Below are positions 16,058 to 36,349 of a DNA stretch of 61,168 bases, one piece after another; position 1 is the stretch's first letter, and each line of letters opens with the position of its first letter. Source of the stretch: an uncultured Pelagibacteraceae bacterium (GTDB lineage: Bacteria > Pseudomonadota > Alphaproteobacteria > Pelagibacterales > Pelagibacteraceae); NCBI GenBank assembly GCA_902552345.1, contig CACDGO010000006.1, positions 1 to 61,168 on the forward strand, given 5' to 3'. Under the pieces are notes generated by a model. The model was not told the origin of the DNA. It was given only the letters and a program-made list of their open reading frames with translations, and searched no databases. The position numbers and the translations under genes are program-made.

Positions 16058-17335
16058 TTATATATTTATTTTAGGTAAGAAGTCAAATGAAGCTGTATCT
16101 ATTCTAGATGAGTGTTCTCTTCTCATTTTCCAATCGTTACTTATACCAGCTTGAGCTATACTGATTGCATTTCGTCCATATTTTGCATTAGTAAAATCGA
16201 TCGCTCTCATTAATGGTTGAGATTTATTCTCTAAAATTGGTGCTAATAAATTTAGCTCTTTTTCAGAAGTGTCTCTAAGCTTCGATAAAATAACTCCAGC
16301 TTTTTGGTAGAAATAACCATATTTATAAATCTTTCCTAGTCCGCTAATCGCAGTTTTTACAAGTTCAATGCTGTTATTAGTTGCCACCGGTAATTCAACA
16401 GTAATAGAATTTGAATAGTATTTTCTATTTTTATCAAATGGACTTGTTCTGATAAATACAGTGACAGCTCTCGTAGTTTGTTTATCTGTTCTTATTTTTT
16501 CTGCCGCATTTAAACAATGAGTAGTTATAGACTCTTTTAATTTATCTAAACTCTCAACTTTTTTTCCAAACGATCTTGATACACAACAGCTTTTTCTTTT
16601 TGTTTCCCCAGTTTCTAAATCTATACAAGAAATTCCTCTTAACTCCATTACTGTTTTCGCACCTAAAACATTTGTACTTTTCTTAACCCATGTGTTTGAA
16701 ATATTTTTTAGTTTATAAGCATTGTCTATTCCGTTTTTAATATATAGTTTTGATAACTGTCTTCCTACTCCCCATACATCTGCAATATCAAAATCTTTTA
16801 GTATATTGTCAATATTTCCTTTTAAAAATATTACTCCTGCTTTATTTTTTTTAGCAATATGATTTGCAACTTTGCTTAAAGTTTTTGTATTTGAGATCCC
16901 TACACTTGTAGGTATTCCTGTCCATTTTAAAACTCTTTCTCTTATTTCTTTTCCGTATTCTTCAACTTGTTCATCTTTGATATGTGATAAATCTAAAAAT
17001 GCTTCGTCTATGGAATAGATTTCAATTTTATCAGTAAAACCTTTTAAAACTTTCATTACTCGTCTAGAAAGATCCCCATACAATGCGTAGTTTGAAGAAA
17101 ATATTTGGACGTTGTTTTTTTTAACCAAATCTTTAACTTTAAAATATGGTTCTCCCATTCGTATTCCAAGTTTTTTTGCTTCAGTAGATCTTGATATTAC
17201 ACATCCATCATTATTAGATAGCACCACGACTGGTACATTTTGTATTTTAGGATTAAATAGTCTTTCACAAGAAACATAAAATGAATTACAGTCAATTAAT
17301 GCAACCTTTTTTCTACTGCTGTTTGTGTATGACAT
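16058..17335 (-). CDS. umuC: DNA polymerase V catalytic subunit UmuC
   Basis: Y-family translesion polymerase that with cleaved UmuD copies damaged templates. The 425-residue protein begins with the catalytic palm motif [19 protein letters not shown], has [19 protein letters not shown], the second acidic cluster [10 protein letters not shown], and the helix-hairpin segment [14 protein letters not shown], plus the little-finger region with CVSRSFGKK. Full length against E. coli UmuC (422). Its start overlaps umuD by 23 bases, so the pair is translationally coupled and shares the SOS promoter ahead of umuD. Confidence 0.96.
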
Positions 17336-17708
17336 ATGTTACTACTCCCCAAATTATTATTTCTGGATTATCTGTTAAATTAATTCGATCTGAAGTGTTT
17401 TTTGAACCTGATGTTAAGTAGTTGTTACCCTTGCTTTTAACCAGAGTTTTAACTACGAGTTCTTCGTTGATATTTGCTATAACAGTGGAGAAATTTTTTG
17501 GATTTAAACTTTTGTCTACTATTAAAAGATCTCCATCATATATGCCCACATTAGTCATAGATTTACCCTGTACCCTAATGATGAAAGTGGCTGGTGCATT
17601 TGTTATCAGATGAGAATTTAAATCTATATCATCCTCTATATAGTCTGTTGCCGGAGAAGGAAAACCAGCTCCCACTTTATGTAAATAATAAGGTATTGTT
17701 AGCTTCAT
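17313..17708 (-). CDS. umuD: UmuD, self-cleaving subunit of DNA polymerase V
   Basis: S24-family protein whose RecA-stimulated autocleavage yields the active UmuD' of polymerase V. 131 residues. The predicted cleavage site is Ala14-Gly15 in VGAGFPSPA. The catalytic dyad is Ser50 (VQGKSMTN) and Lys87 (ELVVKTL), 37 residues apart as in E. coli (60 and 97). There is no DNA-binding domain, so it is not LexA. The start is fixed by the cleavage-site context. A LexA box lies 4 bases upstream of the start codon. Confidence 0.94.
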
Positions 17709-31497: not shown

Positions 31498-32501
31498 GTC
31501 TTAACAAAACAAATATAGGATTATTACTAGGTGATCCTTCAGGTATTGGACCGGAGTTGACAGTCAAATTACTAGATAGCGATGTGAGCGAAAAAGCTAA
31601 CGTCATAGTAATTGGTGAAAAAAAGGTCTTAGAAGATGGTCAGGAAATAGCTGGAAAAAAAATAGATTTAAAATTTGTAGACAATTTCGATGATGTTAAT
31701 TTTGATGGGAAAACAAAATTTTTTTTAGACATTTCTAAGGGAACAAACAGATCATACGTTAAGAAACAAGTTTGTGCTGAGTCGGGTAAAAGTGTTTTAG
31801 AAGCTACAGAAATAGCCCTTAGTTTAGCAAAAAAAAATAAGATTCATGCAATTAATTTTGCTCCTATGAATAAAGCGAGCCTGATTCAAGGAGGCTGTGA
31901 GTTCAATGATGAACATGAATTATTTCAAAATAGGCTAAATGTTAAAGATTTTTGTTGTGAATTCAATGTTGTGGATAATTTTTGGACTGCTAGAGTAACT
32001 TCACATATACCAATAAAAGAAGTTGCTCAAAATATTACAAAAGAAAATATTTTAAAACCAATTAAACTTCTAAATAAGACACTTAAAATGAGTGGTATTG
32101 TAAATCCGAGGATAGCAGTGCAAGCTTTAAATCCTCATGCTGAATTCGGTACGGAGGAAAAAGATGAAATTATCCCGGCTATTGAAGAAGCAAAAAAGAT
32201 GGGTATAAAAGCTGATGGCCCGCTGCCATGTGATACTTCATTTATCACAGCTTTTAAAAATAAAAATCATGATTGTATTGTTGGTATGTATCATGATGCA
32301 CTTCAGTGTGGTTTAAAAGCATTTGGTTTTGATAGAGGCGTAACCGTTTCAGGTGGTTTAGATATTCCAATTACAACACCTGCGCACGGTACTGCATTTG
32401 ATATTACGGGAAAAAATATTGCTAATTTAGAACCAACTATCCAATCATTCAAATTAGCAATAAAAATGGCTGAGAGTAAATTCAATGGGAAAAGTAATTG
32501 A
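31494..32501 (+). CDS. PdxA-family dehydrogenase, divergent
   Basis: NAD-dependent oxidative-decarboxylase fold of 4-hydroxythreonine-4-phosphate dehydrogenase (PdxA), 335 residues. Family marks: GLLLGDPSGIGPELTVKLL, ALNPHAEFGTEE and GMYHDALQCGLKAFGF with two metal histidines, and HGTAFDITGKNIA. Deviations from PdxA: the first metal motif GHTE is replaced by NDEHE, so the histidine is shifted by one; PVHKG is PMNKA; and the RTSxDHGTA lead-in is ITTPAHGTA. It may be the true PdxA of this organism (pdxJ is in the window) or act on another phosphorylated hydroxy acid. It overlaps topA by 4 bases and the RidA gene by 17. Confidence 0.85.
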   Translation: MSLNKTNIGLLLGDPSGIGPELTVKLLDSDVSEKANVIVIGEKKVLEDGQEIAGKKIDLKFVDNFDDVNFDGKTKFFLDISKGTNRSYVKKQVCAESGKSVLEATEIALSLAKKNKIHAINFAPMNKASLIQGGCEFNDEHELFQNRLNVKDFCCEFNVVDNFWTARVTSHIPIKEVAQNITKENILKPIKLLNKTLKMSGIVNPRIAVQALNPHAEFGTEEKDEIIPAIEEAKKMGIKADGPLPCDTSFITAFKNKNHDCIVGMYHDALQCGLKAFGFDRGVTVSGGLDIPITTPAHGTAFDITGKNIANLEPTIQSFKLAIKMAESKFNGKSN

Positions 32502-32949
32502 TAGAATTAATGCATTAAAAATTAAACTACCAGAACCTAAGCCTCCGGTTGGAGCCTATGTTGCAACAAAAATAATTGGAAATTTATTATATATTTCTGG
32601 ACAGGTTTCAATCGATGAAAATGCAAAACTTATCACAGGAAAAATTGGAAAAGAATTAGATTTGGAAGAAGGTTATAAAGCTGCCGAAAGGTGCGGATTG
32701 AGTATTGTCGCACATGTTAAAAATGCATGTGAAGGAGATTTAGATAAAGTTAAATCTTGTGTCAAATTAACAGGTTATGTTAATTCAACCGATGATTTTA
32801 AAGATCAGCCCAAAATTATTAATGGTGCATCAGATATAATAGCTAAAATCTTTGAAAAAAAAGGTGAGCACACACGTGCTGCAGTAAGTGTGAATAGTTT
32901 ACCTTTAGGAGTTGCAGTTGAAGTCGATGCTATCTTTGAACTTAATTAA
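32485..32949 (+). CDS. RidA/YjgF/UK114 family protein
   Basis: 154-residue trimeric-barrel protein of the family that hydrolyses reactive enamine/imine intermediates. The N-terminal LPEPKPPVGAYVATKIIGNLLYISGQ and GKIGKELDLEEGYKAAERCGLS are typical of the longer YjgF subgroup with a LeuP-like KLTGYVNS motif. The usual substrate arginine is not obvious: the R in GEHTRAAVSVNSLPLGVAVEVDAIFE is in the right place. Tight overlap with the PdxA-like gene suggests joint function. The 3' end faces the alginate-lyase-like gene 7 bases away. Confidence 0.9.
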   Translation: MGKVIDRINALKIKLPEPKPPVGAYVATKIIGNLLYISGQVSIDENAKLITGKIGKELDLEEGYKAAERCGLSIVAHVKNACEGDLDKVKSCVKLTGYVNSTDDFKDQPKIINGASDIIAKIFEKKGEHTRAAVSVNSLPLGVAVEVDAIFELN

Positions 32950-32956
32950 TTTAAAA

Positions 32957-34228
32957 TTAATTCATACACTTTGGCTCAAATCCAAAATTTCTATCTACGA
33001 AATAAACTGATTTTTTAGATTTCCACATTCTGTCATTAGCAACAATAGTATGATCTTTGTCTGTGTATTTTTCAATTAACCAATCTAGAGATATAGCCAT
33101 CTGGTGTACATGATAATTTGCGTGCGCTTGATCTTTTGTAAAATTCTGCAATCCTGATGGGTCTTTACGTTCTCTGTAACTTTTAATATCAGTAAGTCCC
33201 AAGTTCAGCACGTCGACAGTTTTATCTATTCTTTGCTTTAATTCTTTTGGAAAATTCTTGTAACCCCATAGTTCAGATATTGCATAAAGTCCTAATAAAT
33301 TATTTACACCCTGTGAATGATACCAGACATCTCTGACACCTCTGAAACTGTTATTATGAATATATCCATCTTTATATACAACTTTATCAGCTTTACTAAT
33401 TCCCTTTTTAATCCATTCTGCTGCAGCTTCTGGTTTATCTTTCCAGGCCAAATACGAAAGCACAGAGATAGTTCCATCAGCCATTTGTATAAACCCTCTT
33501 GCATGTTTCTTTGTTGTTAATTCCTTTACAGCCCACGGCTTGATATATTTTTTGTACAAAGACTCAATATACTCATCAACAATTTTAAATTGTTCTTTAG
33601 TAAATTGATCTCTCATTAGATATGCTTGTTGTATATAGGTAGCTCCATATATTTGAGCTTCGTGGGGCCTGTGGGAAATACAAGGTTTGTTACCTTTAGC
33701 TTTCGCGCCGCCATAACATAGTTTATCAACTTTACCTTCGTCTTTCAGTTTATTAATTTCTTTAGAAGTTAGAGTACTTAACATAACACCTGCTTCTGCC
33801 CAAGCTACCATAACTTTAGCAATTAGTGGTCCATGCTCGTCCATTTTGCTATCTACAATTGCCGAAACAATGGTTCCGTGCAATAATGCCAATCTATTAG
33901 AGTGTTCTTCATGATTAACATATATGCTATTTGATCTTTGTTCGTGATCTTTATTCCAATCATACTTAGTAAGTTTCATTAAATGATCATAATTGTTACC
34001 TTGTAATTCAGGATTTTTTGATTTGCTTACATGTGTTATTGCAAGATCCAAGTCCCAGCCTGCTTTACCCCAACTCCCATAACCATGCACACCTTTTAAA
34101 GAACATGTTTTTTTAGAAAGTTCGTTTGCAAAGAAATATTTTGGAATTACAATATCGTCTTTATTTGCATAAGCATTAGTAGAAAAAATTATTACAAAAA
34201 GGAAAAATATTTTTTTTAAATTATTCAC
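32957..34228 (-). CDS. Secreted alginate-lyase-like protein
   Basis: 423 residues with a signal peptide (MNNLKKIFFLFVIIFSTNAYA). The mature part is rich in aromatic and histidine residues and shows the helical-toroid pattern of alginate-lyase-like proteins: KPWAVKELTTKKHARGF, NNSFRGVRDVWYHSQGVNNLLGLYAI, then DQAHANYHVHQMAISLDWLIEKY. The WYHSQGVNNL segment is comparable to the catalytic region of PL5 AlgL, but the match is by eye and the substrate is unknown. It is last in galU-ugd-this gene, with no base between ugd and it. Because that operon makes UDP-glucuronate, a role in handling a uronic-acid polymer in the periplasm is inferred. Confidence 0.6.
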   Translation of the reverse strand: MNNLKKIFFLFVIIFSTNAYANKDDIVIPKYFFANELSKKTCSLKGVHGYGSWGKAGWDLDLAITHVSKSKNPELQGNNYDHLMKLTKYDWNKDHEQRSNSIYVNHEEHSNRLALLHGTIVSAIVDSKMDEHGPLIAKVMVAWAEAGVMLSTLTSKEINKLKDEGKVDKLCYGGAKAKGNKPCISHRPHEAQIYGATYIQQAYLMRDQFTKEQFKIVDEYIESLYKKYIKPWAVKELTTKKHARGFIQMADGTISVLSYLAWKDKPEAAAEWIKKGISKADKVVYKDGYIHNNSFRGVRDVWYHSQGVNNLLGLYAISELWGYKNFPKELKQRIDKTVDVLNLGLTDIKSYRERKDPSGLQNFTKDQAHANYHVHQMAISLDWLIEKYTDKDHTIVANDRMWKSKKSVYFVDRNFGFEPKCMN

Positions 34229-35533
34229 TTAAATAGAGTTAGGTCTTCCAACAGAGTAATAATTAATTTTATTTTTTTTCATTTCTTCTGCGGAATAAAG
34301 ATTTCTTAAATCATACACCTTAAAATTCTTTTTTTTAACGATTTTTTTAAAATCAATCGATTTGAATTCGTCCCATTCAGTTAGTAAAACTATTAAATCC
34401 GCACCATTGCAATTAGATTTGATATTATTTTTGTAATTGCAGTTTTTAATTTTCTTAAATTCATTTTTTTCACCAGAAGGATCATAGTAATTAACTTTTG
34501 CTCCTTTTTTGCATAGATAAGGTATCATGTTAAGACTAGTAGAATCTCGCATATCATCAGTGTTTGGTTTAAATGTAACTCCTAAGAAAGAAATTCTTTT
34601 ATTTTTTATATTTGAACCTAAGATTTTATGAATCCTTTGAGTGAGTAAATTAACTCTTTCTTTATTAGATTTAATAACTGATTTCACAACTGATAGATTT
34701 ATTTTATATTTATCTGCGGCAGATACGAGACCTTTTGTATCTTTTGGAAAACATGAGCCTCCGTATGCTGGGCCAGCACGTAAAAACCTACCGCCTATTC
34801 TACTATCAGAGCCCATTCCTAATGAAATATCTTCTATATTAACTCCAGATTTTTCGCATAAGTTTGCAAGTTCATTTATAAAAGTAATCTTAGTTGCAAG
34901 AAAAGCATTAGATGCATATTTTATTAATTCAGCTCCTCTTCTTGAAGTAGTAAAAAATTTTGAACCTTTGTTAGTTAATGGTGCATAAAGTTTTTTCATA
35001 ATATTGAAGGTTTTTTTTTCGTTAGATCCTATTACAATTCTATCCGGATATCTAAAATCTCGAATTGCTTCACCCTCTCTTAAGAATTCAGGATTAGAGA
35101 TTACTGTAAAAAGTTTTTTCTTTTTTTTTAAAATTTTTTCAATCTCATCGCCTGTTCCTACAGGGACAGTAGATTTAGTAATGATAATTTTTTTTCTTTT
35201 TGAATATTTTAATATCTCTTTCGTGCATTTATAAACGAAAGATAAATCAACTTTAATTGATCCTTTTTTTGTAGGAGTTCCCACGCATATAAAAATTATA
35301 TCTGACGAATTTATGGCTCTATCAATATTTGAAGTAAATGAAAGACGTTTAGCTGTAAAATTTTTTTTGATTAATTCATCTAATCCTGGTTCATAAATTG
35401 GAGAAATTCCAGAGTTGAGTTTTTCTATTTTATTTTTATCTTTATCAACACAAACAACCTGGTTGCCTATGTCAGCAAAGCAGACTCCACTTACTAATCC
35501 AACATAACCAGTCCCAATCATACATAGTTTCAT
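34229..35533 (-). CDS. ugd: UDP-glucose 6-dehydrogenase
   Basis: Oxidises UDP-glucose twice with NAD to UDP-glucuronate. 434 residues. Rossmann motif MIGTGYVGLVSGVCFADIG, the EPGLDELI segment, the catalytic cysteine in AYGGSCFPKDTKGL and VTFKPNTDDMRDS before the C-terminal NAD domain. Directly follows galU with no spacing base, giving glucose 1-phosphate to UDP-glucuronate in two steps. Confidence 0.96.
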   Translation of the reverse strand: MKLCMIGTGYVGLVSGVCFADIGNQVVCVDKDKNKIEKLNSGISPIYEPGLDELIKKNFTAKRLSFTSNIDRAINSSDIIFICVGTPTKKGSIKVDLSFVYKCTKEILKYSKRKKIIITKSTVPVGTGDEIEKILKKKKKLFTVISNPEFLREGEAIRDFRYPDRIVIGSNEKKTFNIMKKLYAPLTNKGSKFFTTSRRGAELIKYASNAFLATKITFINELANLCEKSGVNIEDISLGMGSDSRIGGRFLRAGPAYGGSCFPKDTKGLVSAADKYKINLSVVKSVIKSNKERVNLLTQRIHKILGSNIKNKRISFLGVTFKPNTDDMRDSTSLNMIPYLCKKGAKVNYYDPSGEKNEFKKIKNCNYKNNIKSNCNGADLIVLLTEWDEFKSIDFKKIVKKKNFKVYDLRNLYSAEEMKKNKINYYSVGRPNSI

Positions 35534-36349
35534 TTAATTTCCCTTAGATATTTGAATTCCTGAATTTATATATCCACTTAAAGTTCCGCAATCTAAATAT
35601 TTACCCTTAAAAATATTTCCGTAAAATTTATATTCTTTTTTAATTAAACTTCTAATTGCGTCAGTAATATGTATTTCTCGTCCGTGGCCAGGTTTTAATT
35701 TTTTAATTTCACTAAAAATTTTTGTTGGCAATATATATCTTCCAATAATTGCAAAATTTGAGGGCGCTTTTTTGATGCTAGGTTTCTCTACAACATCTTT
35801 AATTCGAAAATAGCTTTTTTTTTTATTTTGGATTGATAAAATTCCCCATCTTGACACTGTTTTTCTCTCTACTCTTTTTGTAGCAATTATAGAACCTTTA
35901 GTTTTTTTATGTAGTCGTATCATTTCTTTTGAACAATTATTTTTTATTATTAAGTCATCAGGCAAGAGCATTAAAAAATATTTACTTTTTATAAATTTTT
36001 GGCATTTTAAAACTGCATCACCTGTGCCTTTTGGCTTGTTTTGATAAACAAATTTTATCATTTTCTGATATCTTTTTATTTTTTTATATTCTTCAAGTAG
36101 TCTTTTATCTTTCTTCTTTTTTATTATTTTTTTATAAAAACTGTCGTTAAAAAAATATTTTTTAATCGATAGTTTTTTTTTTGAAATTATAAATATAAAT
36201 TCCTTTACACCTGCTTCAAAGCATTCATCTAATATATATTGTAAATTCGGTTTACCATTTATGGGCATTAACTCTTTTGGCATTACACTTGTCAAAGGAA
36301 GCAATCTAGTCCCTAAACCTGCTAATGGAATAATGGCTTGTTTTATCAT
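35534..36349 (-). CDS. galU: UTP-glucose-1-phosphate uridylyltransferase
   Basis: Makes UDP-glucose from glucose 1-phosphate and UTP. 271 residues, slightly short of the usual 290-300. The nucleotide loop is IIPLAGLGTRLLPLTSVMPKELMPI; further motifs are QNKPKGTGDAVLKC, LLPDDLI and the C-terminal GHGREIHITDAI with YLDCGTLSGYI. First gene of the galU-ugd-lyase operon; divergent from panC across 38 bases that must contain both promoters. Confidence 0.95.
   Translation of the reverse strand: MIKQAIIPLAGLGTRLLPLTSVMPKELMPINGKPNLQYILDECFEAGVKEFIFIISKKKLSIKKYFFNDSFYKKIIKKKKDKRLLEEYKKIKRYQKMIKFVYQNKPKGTGDAVLKCQKFIKSKYFLMLLPDDLIIKNNCSKEMIRLHKKTKGSIIATKRVERKTVSRWGILSIQNKKKSYFRIKDVVEKPSIKKAPSNFAIIGRYILPTKIFSEIKKLKPGHGREIHITDAIRSLIKKEYKFYGNIFKGKYLDCGTLSGYINSGIQISKGN

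Follow-up and report, generated by a model that had tools for sequence, protein, structure and literature searches.

We analysed a window (the whole stretch of DNA under study) of 61,168 nucleotides, comprising positions 1 to 61,168 of contig CACDGO010000006.1 from an uncultured SAR11 bacterium of the Pelagibacteraceae (assembly GCA_902552345.1), whose genome spans 997,704 bases on 20 contigs and is ~86% complete. Three adjacent genes on its reverse strand are the subject of this report: a galU-like gene for a UTP-glucose-1-phosphate uridylyltransferase (35534..36349, 271 amino acids), ugd, encoding a nucleotide-sugar (UDP-glucose) dehydrogenase (34229..35533, 434 amino acids), and a third gene, hereafter the cargo gene (32957..34228, 423 amino acids), which encodes an exported-looking protein resembling polysaccharide lyase family 5 (PL5), as judged from its predicted fold and its relatives. 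The first two were identified by Pfam and NCBIfam models: the galU-like protein scored 261.1 bits with TIGR01099, under the equivalog cut-off of 326.8, and 129 bits with PF00483, above the cut-off of 21.2, and the ugd protein scored 459.4 bits with TIGR03026, above the cut-off of 189.8. We consider it probable that the cargo gene encodes an exported PL5-like lyase of acidic polysaccharides and that it constitutes a mobile cargo common to SAR11, SAR116 and large uncultured phages.

A first-pass annotation of this DNA had described the three genes as a gapless operon, and the open reading frame (ORF) coordinates bear out the gaplessness: neither the galU/ugd nor the ugd/cargo junction has a single spacer base, the cargo gene starting with a GTG codon flush against the ugd stop (in the relative at locus L017 an ATG occupies the same position). 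Such packing is ordinary for the window and unremarkable here, since among its 59 pairs of neighbours on the same strand the gap is <=0 in 33 (it is exactly 0 in 5 pairs and at most 2 in 40). The cargo ORF has the marks of a genuine gene kept by purifying selection: the ratio of nonsynonymous to synonymous substitution rates (dN/dS, NG86) was 0.075-0.177 across nine comparisons of the window gene with relatives. Counting the GTG codon as residue 1, the N-terminus resembles a signal peptide with cleavage after A21, as judged by eye (putative signal peptide, residues 1-21, 34166..34228, reverse strand), and in a 48-row alignment of the family the relatives complete at this end start similarly; the protein is presumably exported.

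Predicted fold and active site

A first structure model of the cargo protein, built from 23 close rows, was too poor to use (predicted local distance difference test, pLDDT, 48.3) and was replaced by a second, built from 22 rows that included viral-contig homologues, the other rows being 26-95% identical to the window protein (profile A4). The second model reached a pLDDT of 79.0 and a predicted template modelling score of 0.86. When it was compared with known structures by VIA, ranks 1-21 were all PL5 (A1-III, AlgL, PanPL and Smlt1473), with Z 20.2-18.3, a root-mean-square deviation of 3.4-4.2 and 273-319 residues aligned. Foldseek placed PL5 at ranks 1-17 for the first model, one of them at E<=0.001, and at ranks 1-6 for the second (probability 1.00, best E 3.0e-3). 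Searched against the PDB, profile A4 gave six matches at E<=10, all of them PL5, the best being a weak one to AlgL (E 0.037), and five of its 22 members match PF05426 at E<=0.1 (best 1.2e-7). A PL5 alpha/alpha toroid fold is thus supported by the modelling. The helical toroid had been a guess in the first-pass annotation and is now backed by a structure prediction, and the comparison with AlgL that it proposed returned the PL5 fold; its proposed profile search came out mixed, with family members matching PF05426 and the window protein alone matching nothing.

The closest structures are those of AlgL from Pseudomonas aeruginosa (4ozv, 7sa8) and A1-III (1qaz, 4f13), both of PL5, in which the toroid is matched along almost all of the mature chain (Z 20.2-19.6) at a structural identity of just 8-11%. 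Like these enzymes, the window protein would be exported; unlike that of AlgL, its gene lies outside any alginate operon, and the family has features of its own, namely an invariant motif at residues 287-304 and an H-x-H-Q. Smlt1473 and PanPL, also of PL5, are neighbours of the model in both Foldseek and VIA, at 9-14% structural identity. The next best fold is that of the PL38 alginate lyase BoPL38 (9fi3, 9fhu), with a lower Z (17.9-17.2) and 12-13% identity. At the sequence level, SAR11 proteins of PF05426 type (L006, L033, L034) share the WYH segment with the window family and matched the shallow family alignment A1 in HHalign (probability 80, E 1.4e-5, 77 columns), but they differ from it, being 28% identical over the matched piece, and L006 itself is barely above the PF05426 cut-off (22.6 vs 22.2 bits). 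HHalign comparisons of A1 with PL5 alone (probability 0.7) and with PL5 plus NNHG-type rows (probability 4.3) were non-significant. In the genus, these and other more distant proteins of PF05426 type are encoded at L006:796-1983, L033, L034 and L031:1123-2253, the last of which retains an NNHS motif.

The segment WYHSQGVNNL, which had been read as AlgL-like, occupies residues 302-311 and overlaps the family signature DGYIHNNSFRGVRDVWYH (residues 287-304, 33317..33370, reverse strand), defined by invariance over the 48 rows and by alignments with AlgL. In these alignments R296, R299, Y303 and H304 coincide with the R-x2-R-x3-Y-H of AlgL, and R296 and Y303 fall, with identical spacing, at the positions of AlgL R249 and Y256, both of which are needed for activity according to an excerpt of PMC8829089. 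Invariant over the 48 rows are H186, D287, G288, Y289, I290, N293, R296, Y303, H304 and H375; N292 is present in at least 95% of rows, and R299 is not invariant. Unlike AlgL and A1-III, the window protein lacks the catalytic His (H202/H192) and the Asn preceding it, and unlike Smlt1473 it lacks an equivalent of N167-H168, described as the catalytic pair of that enzyme in part of PMC8511899, where it is also said to cleave hyaluronan, polyglucuronate, polymannuronate and polyguluronate. N292/N293, Q248 or histidines might take over the role of this pair; the PDB title of BoPL38 names a Q173 mutant, and going by that title a Gln may have the function there that Q248 could have in the window protein. 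Because the Asn-His pair is missing, the protein is best described as PL5-like and is not placed inside PL5. Of the AlgL-like secreted protein proposed initially, the fold, the R-x2-R-x3-Y-H segment and the exported appearance are supported; the Asn-His pair is absent, and the window protein matches no Pfam family.

The missing pair would also fit a pseudo-enzyme whose toroid binds an acidic glycan and does not cut it. We find this quite unlikely, seeing that R296, Y303, H304, H186, N293 and H375 are all held invariant, that N292 is nearly so, and that some of these conserved residues could replace the absent pair. As a PL5-like lyase, the protein would be exported to the periplasm or, in forms with a lipobox, tethered to a membrane, and by analogy with AlgL it would most likely cut a uronate-containing polysaccharide by beta-elimination outside the cytoplasm, with Tyr303 as the acid/base and Arg296 as its partner.

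Occupied and empty insertion sites

To its right, the cargo gene is bordered by a convergent ridA-like gene (32485..32949, forward strand), identified by Pfam and NCBIfam models and by the empty-site regions, and the 7-base stretch between the two (32950..32956) retains the stop-region sequence of an empty site at this right junction. Among 18 non-carrier genomes of the genus (from 20 regions fetched, hand-picked from the list of ugd matches and so not a random sample), galU-ugd-ridA was contiguous with an intact ugd-ridA junction in 18 of 18, the 3' ends of ugd and ridA overlapping by 8 bases in 17 of them and by 20 in the remaining one. In the window lineage the cargo is positioned at this shared stop region and, seated at the overlapping stop codons, would be able to ride on galU-ugd transcription. 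Its neighbours in the window are galU, ugd, panC, mgtE and ridA, together with genes which by eye we take to be pdxA and topA. The cargo gene has the highest guanine-plus-cytosine (GC) fraction at third codon positions among eight genes compared (0.236) and the same overall GC as pdxA and ridA (0.329), a base composition that backs a foreign origin weakly.

Near full-length cargo copies were found in 12 of the 151 genomes of the genus and any match at E<=0.001 in 16, the four additional genomes contributing one relative at 37% and three weak hits; among the 12 most complete genomes, one has any match. ugd was matched in 126 of the 151 and in all 12 of the most complete genomes, some of these matches reaching nothing but weaker paralogues. 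Across a sample of the order, profile A3 matched 27 of 247 genomes, of which four belong to the window genus (its own genome included) and 22 to genus g6, with one weak match in a third genus. A class-wide sample searched with A1 returned the own genome only (1 of 289), and a plasmid search gave no match. A scan of genome contigs yielded 23 cargo loci, 21 from Pelagibacteraceae and two from SAR116. The order galU-ugd-cargo-ridA was present at nine of them, with a PF14099 gene separating ugd and cargo in L028; L025 shows cargo-ridA at a contig edge, and the remaining 13 loci lie elsewhere. This inconsistent synteny, which the first-pass annotation had itself named as a refuting observation, counts against the operon that it claimed. 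In one of the SAR116 records (L022:4001-12000) GC drops from 0.43-0.47 to ~0.3 around the gene, marking a composition border.

The identities of cargo and Ugd are in conflict: between L009 and L017, Ugd is 95.6% and cargo 85.7% identical, and between L010 and the window, Ugd is 81.6% and cargo 91.0% identical. The cargo therefore seems, from these sequence comparisons, to move independently of ugd.

Relatives in genus g6 occupy other sites. In 13 g6 regions fetched, five had the relative in the hisH-hisA interval of the histidine operon, seven in a cluster of lyase genes and one elsewhere. Within the hisH-hisA interval it stands alone in L151 and with further ORFs in L147, L148, L152 and L158; HisB, HisH, HisA and HisF were verified in L147, and in the other loci were assigned from their similar position and start. 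The junction between hisH and hisA likewise serves as a slot for cargo. At least one ORF precedes hisA in 11 of 30 g6 hisA loci (L159-L188, the 30 best; only ORFs of at least 70 amino acids were counted, and hisH lies outside the stretch in L163 and L164); these ORFs are of several kinds, and one, in L162, belongs to the cargo family. A 289-amino-acid ORF between hisA and hisF (L177:2224-3093) may mark a second slot in this operon. The seven cluster loci (L146, L149, L153-L157) all contain PF14099-type homologues and are flanked by orthologues of window genes 16058-17708, which by eye we take to be umuC/umuD; no such cluster was seen beside the window copies of these genes. Other genes of the g6 loci we take, partly by eye, to be GT2, DUF1800 and DUF1501 genes.

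Uronates play no part in the histidine operon, and because relatives lie within it the position of the cargo gene beside the UDP-glucuronate genes is probably incidental. This bears on the function first proposed for the locus, a uronic-acid polymer system in which UDP-glucuronate made by way of galU-ugd would enter a polymer and the exported lyase would clear polymer stranded in the periplasm, much as AlgL removes periplasmic alginate (excerpt of PMC8829089). The cargo gene sits flush behind ugd and its product has a predicted PL5 fold, as such housekeeping would require, yet ugd is far more widespread than the cargo, relatives lie in the histidine operon and elsewhere, and no synthase, epimerase, glycosyltransferase or exporter adjoins the cargo gene within the window. 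In addition, Poly_export of Wza type was found in 0 of 41 genomes (the own genome, 24 of the genus and 16 of the order) and in 4 of 14 control genomes, AlgE/AlgK-type export being outside the scope of this test. We consider such a housekeeping role very improbable, and a link of the cargo to UDP-glucuronate was rejected as unsupported, given its patchy presence, the copies in the histidine operon and the empty sites. In some SAR11, UDP-glucuronate is used for glucuronic-acid glycolipids, as stated in part of PMC4796936.

Relatives on viral contigs

A scan of IMG/VR with profile A3 gave 11 loci, and with A4 the same loci and one more, so that 12 viral loci hold relatives, 29-82% identical in the best segment; scans with the single window protein and with another SAR11 protein of PF05426 type found none. 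Phage replication or nucleotide genes were shown with PHROGs on two of the 12 contigs: L127 lies on a contig with genes for DNA polymerase (phrog_262, E 2e-196), clamp loader (phrog_168) and exonuclease (phrog_107), and L121 on one with genes for thymidylate synthase (phrog_85) and QueE (phrog_2076). The top INPHARED records for a viral-contig clamp loader, HNH endonuclease and 498-amino-acid protein belong to the PA5oct group, at 39-53% identity (52.8% for the clamp loader); these jumbo phages differ from the viral contigs in that the lyase-like proteins queried have no INPHARED match. We presume, partly by eye, that the viral contigs are of T4 or jumbo type. Pieces of two viral contigs (L132-L143) hold many ORFs that by eye resemble radical-SAM/SPASM proteins, and others that resemble parts of TctC/TctA-type transporters and MetK.

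A tree of the family was built from 51 rows, after duplicates, own-genome copies, some re-fetched copies and two distant AlgL rows had been dropped, with the SAR11 PF05426-type proteins L006, L033 and L034 as outgroup; it is to be read with a warning of long-branch joins between the outgroup and the window clade, and 10 of its 48 inner branches are open. Phage L122 falls outside the other 23 window-type rows (84/87), and phages L121 and L123 group with the SAR116 copies inside the window-type clade (93/95, not starred). In another clade, phages L124-L126 and L144 group with the SAR11 rows L035, L106 and L107 (97/92, starred), and L127 stands beside them at 82/81. Among the 48 aligned rows, a lipobox pattern was observed in six phage rows (L121, L122, L123, L128, L129 and L130) and in both SAR116 rows (L022 and L023), and an unusual N-terminal extension is very similar in phages L121-L123 and the two SAR116 copies. 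This common extension, together with the lipobox pattern, suggests transfer between L121-L123-like phages and SAR116, in either direction. The family would then be traded between SAR11, SAR116 and large phages whose backbone genes are nearest to those of the PA5oct group.

The interleaving of phage and host copies in two clades, the lipobox forms and shared extension, the patchy presence of the cargo and the purifying selection on it would all suit a lyase with which a phage trims the surface glycan of the infected cell, for superinfection exclusion or easier release, and which SAR11 and SAR116 keep as a standing protection against glycan-dependent phages. We regard this as unlikely; the PF14099 lyases and the sulfatase found near the cargo in some genomes (see below) fit feeding equally well.

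Neighbouring lyase genes and the role of the cargo

Part of the neighbourhood was searched with Pfam at seven loci. Five of them (L028, L018, L019, L014 and L029) have polysaccharide-lyase genes of PF14099 near the cargo; L013, with two neighbours scanned, and L022, with one, do not. In one Pelagibacteraceae record (L029:302-7927) seven lyase-type genes stand in a row, namely one of the cargo family, five of PF14099 and one of PF05426, and in a SAR11 record (L018:9278-12383) the cargo gene is followed by genes for an FG-GAP-repeat protein and a sulfatase. The company of PF14099, PF05426 and sulfatase genes supports acidic polysaccharide as the likely substrate class. Two of the PF14099-type neighbours were compared with the PDB and gave no useful sequence match. 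Over the genus, PF14099 is above its cut-off in 67 of 151 genomes, including 7 of the 12 most complete.

The same neighbours, along with a gene for a major facilitator superfamily transporter downstream of the cargo in L014, would be expected of a nutritional lyase that cuts dissolved polysaccharide of algae or bacteria so that the unsaturated uronate oligomers released can be taken up. Such a role is possible, though we doubt it: the window genome has no match to PF14099 or PF05426, and secreted enzymes would be costly to a free-living oligotroph. The likelihoods that we attach to these roles, to polymer housekeeping and to a non-cutting toroid overlap with that of the overall reading, an exported PL5-like lyase carried as mobile cargo.

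A number of results speak against that overall reading. As regards the fold, the VIA scores of PL38 (17.9), PL33 (17.3) and other toroid lyases are no more than 1 below the lowest PL5 rows, which makes the PL5 subfamily call soft, and Foldseek with the second model gave no match at E<=0.001, with unrelated folds from rank 10. The window protein alone had no significant Pfam, NCBIfam or PDB sequence match and its family no significant PHROG, a close-relative profile searched against the PDB gave only two chance-level matches, neither of them a lyase, and one of the 22 family members has a weak match (E 0.0048) to a domain of glucuronyl C5-epimerases. As regards catalysis, the window sequence GFIQMADG aligns to the NNHSYW of PL5, so that the Asn-His pair is not kept; an excerpt of PMC8829089 reports that AlgL H202A had no detectable in vitro activity, yet the strain carrying it tolerated alginate production. 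As regards the phages, a virion gene was not shown, because none of 11 viral records, possibly fragments, matched terminase PF03237 or Gp23 PF07068 (PF07068 was found in no control either), and no INPHARED genome was matched in tblastn by the proteins of the window, L125 or L127; in the tree, phage rows are absent from a SAR11 clade of 19 rows and from a g6 clade of 13. Finally, counted by genome, PF14099 occurs in 7 of 12 carriers and in 60 of 139 other genomes, which is no clear excess.

A bolder account, which we rate as rather unlikely, is that an exported or lipid-anchored PL5-like lyase of large PA5oct-related phages remodels the surface glycan of the host and was captured repeatedly by SAR11 and SAR116, where it would dock scarlessly at the ugd|ridA and hisH|hisA junctions as a standing, swappable surface-remodelling gene; it would represent a new polysaccharide-lyase family, with an active site rebuilt without the Asn-His pair. 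What is new here is that phage and host share the family, that its active site is altered and that it uses open slots next to core genes; no description of the family in SAR11 or its phages was found in open-access PMC titles and the starts of abstracts, and an earlier mention elsewhere is possible.

To summarize, genes that lie flush against each other in a streamlined genome need not have a common function. SAR11 are usually regarded as streamlined users of small dissolved molecules; if the reading of the cargo as an exported, mobile PL5-like lyase is true, some SAR11 would cut or reshape acidic polysaccharides, and the transfer of genes by phages could be tied, in a testable way, to the surface or feeding traits of SAR11.

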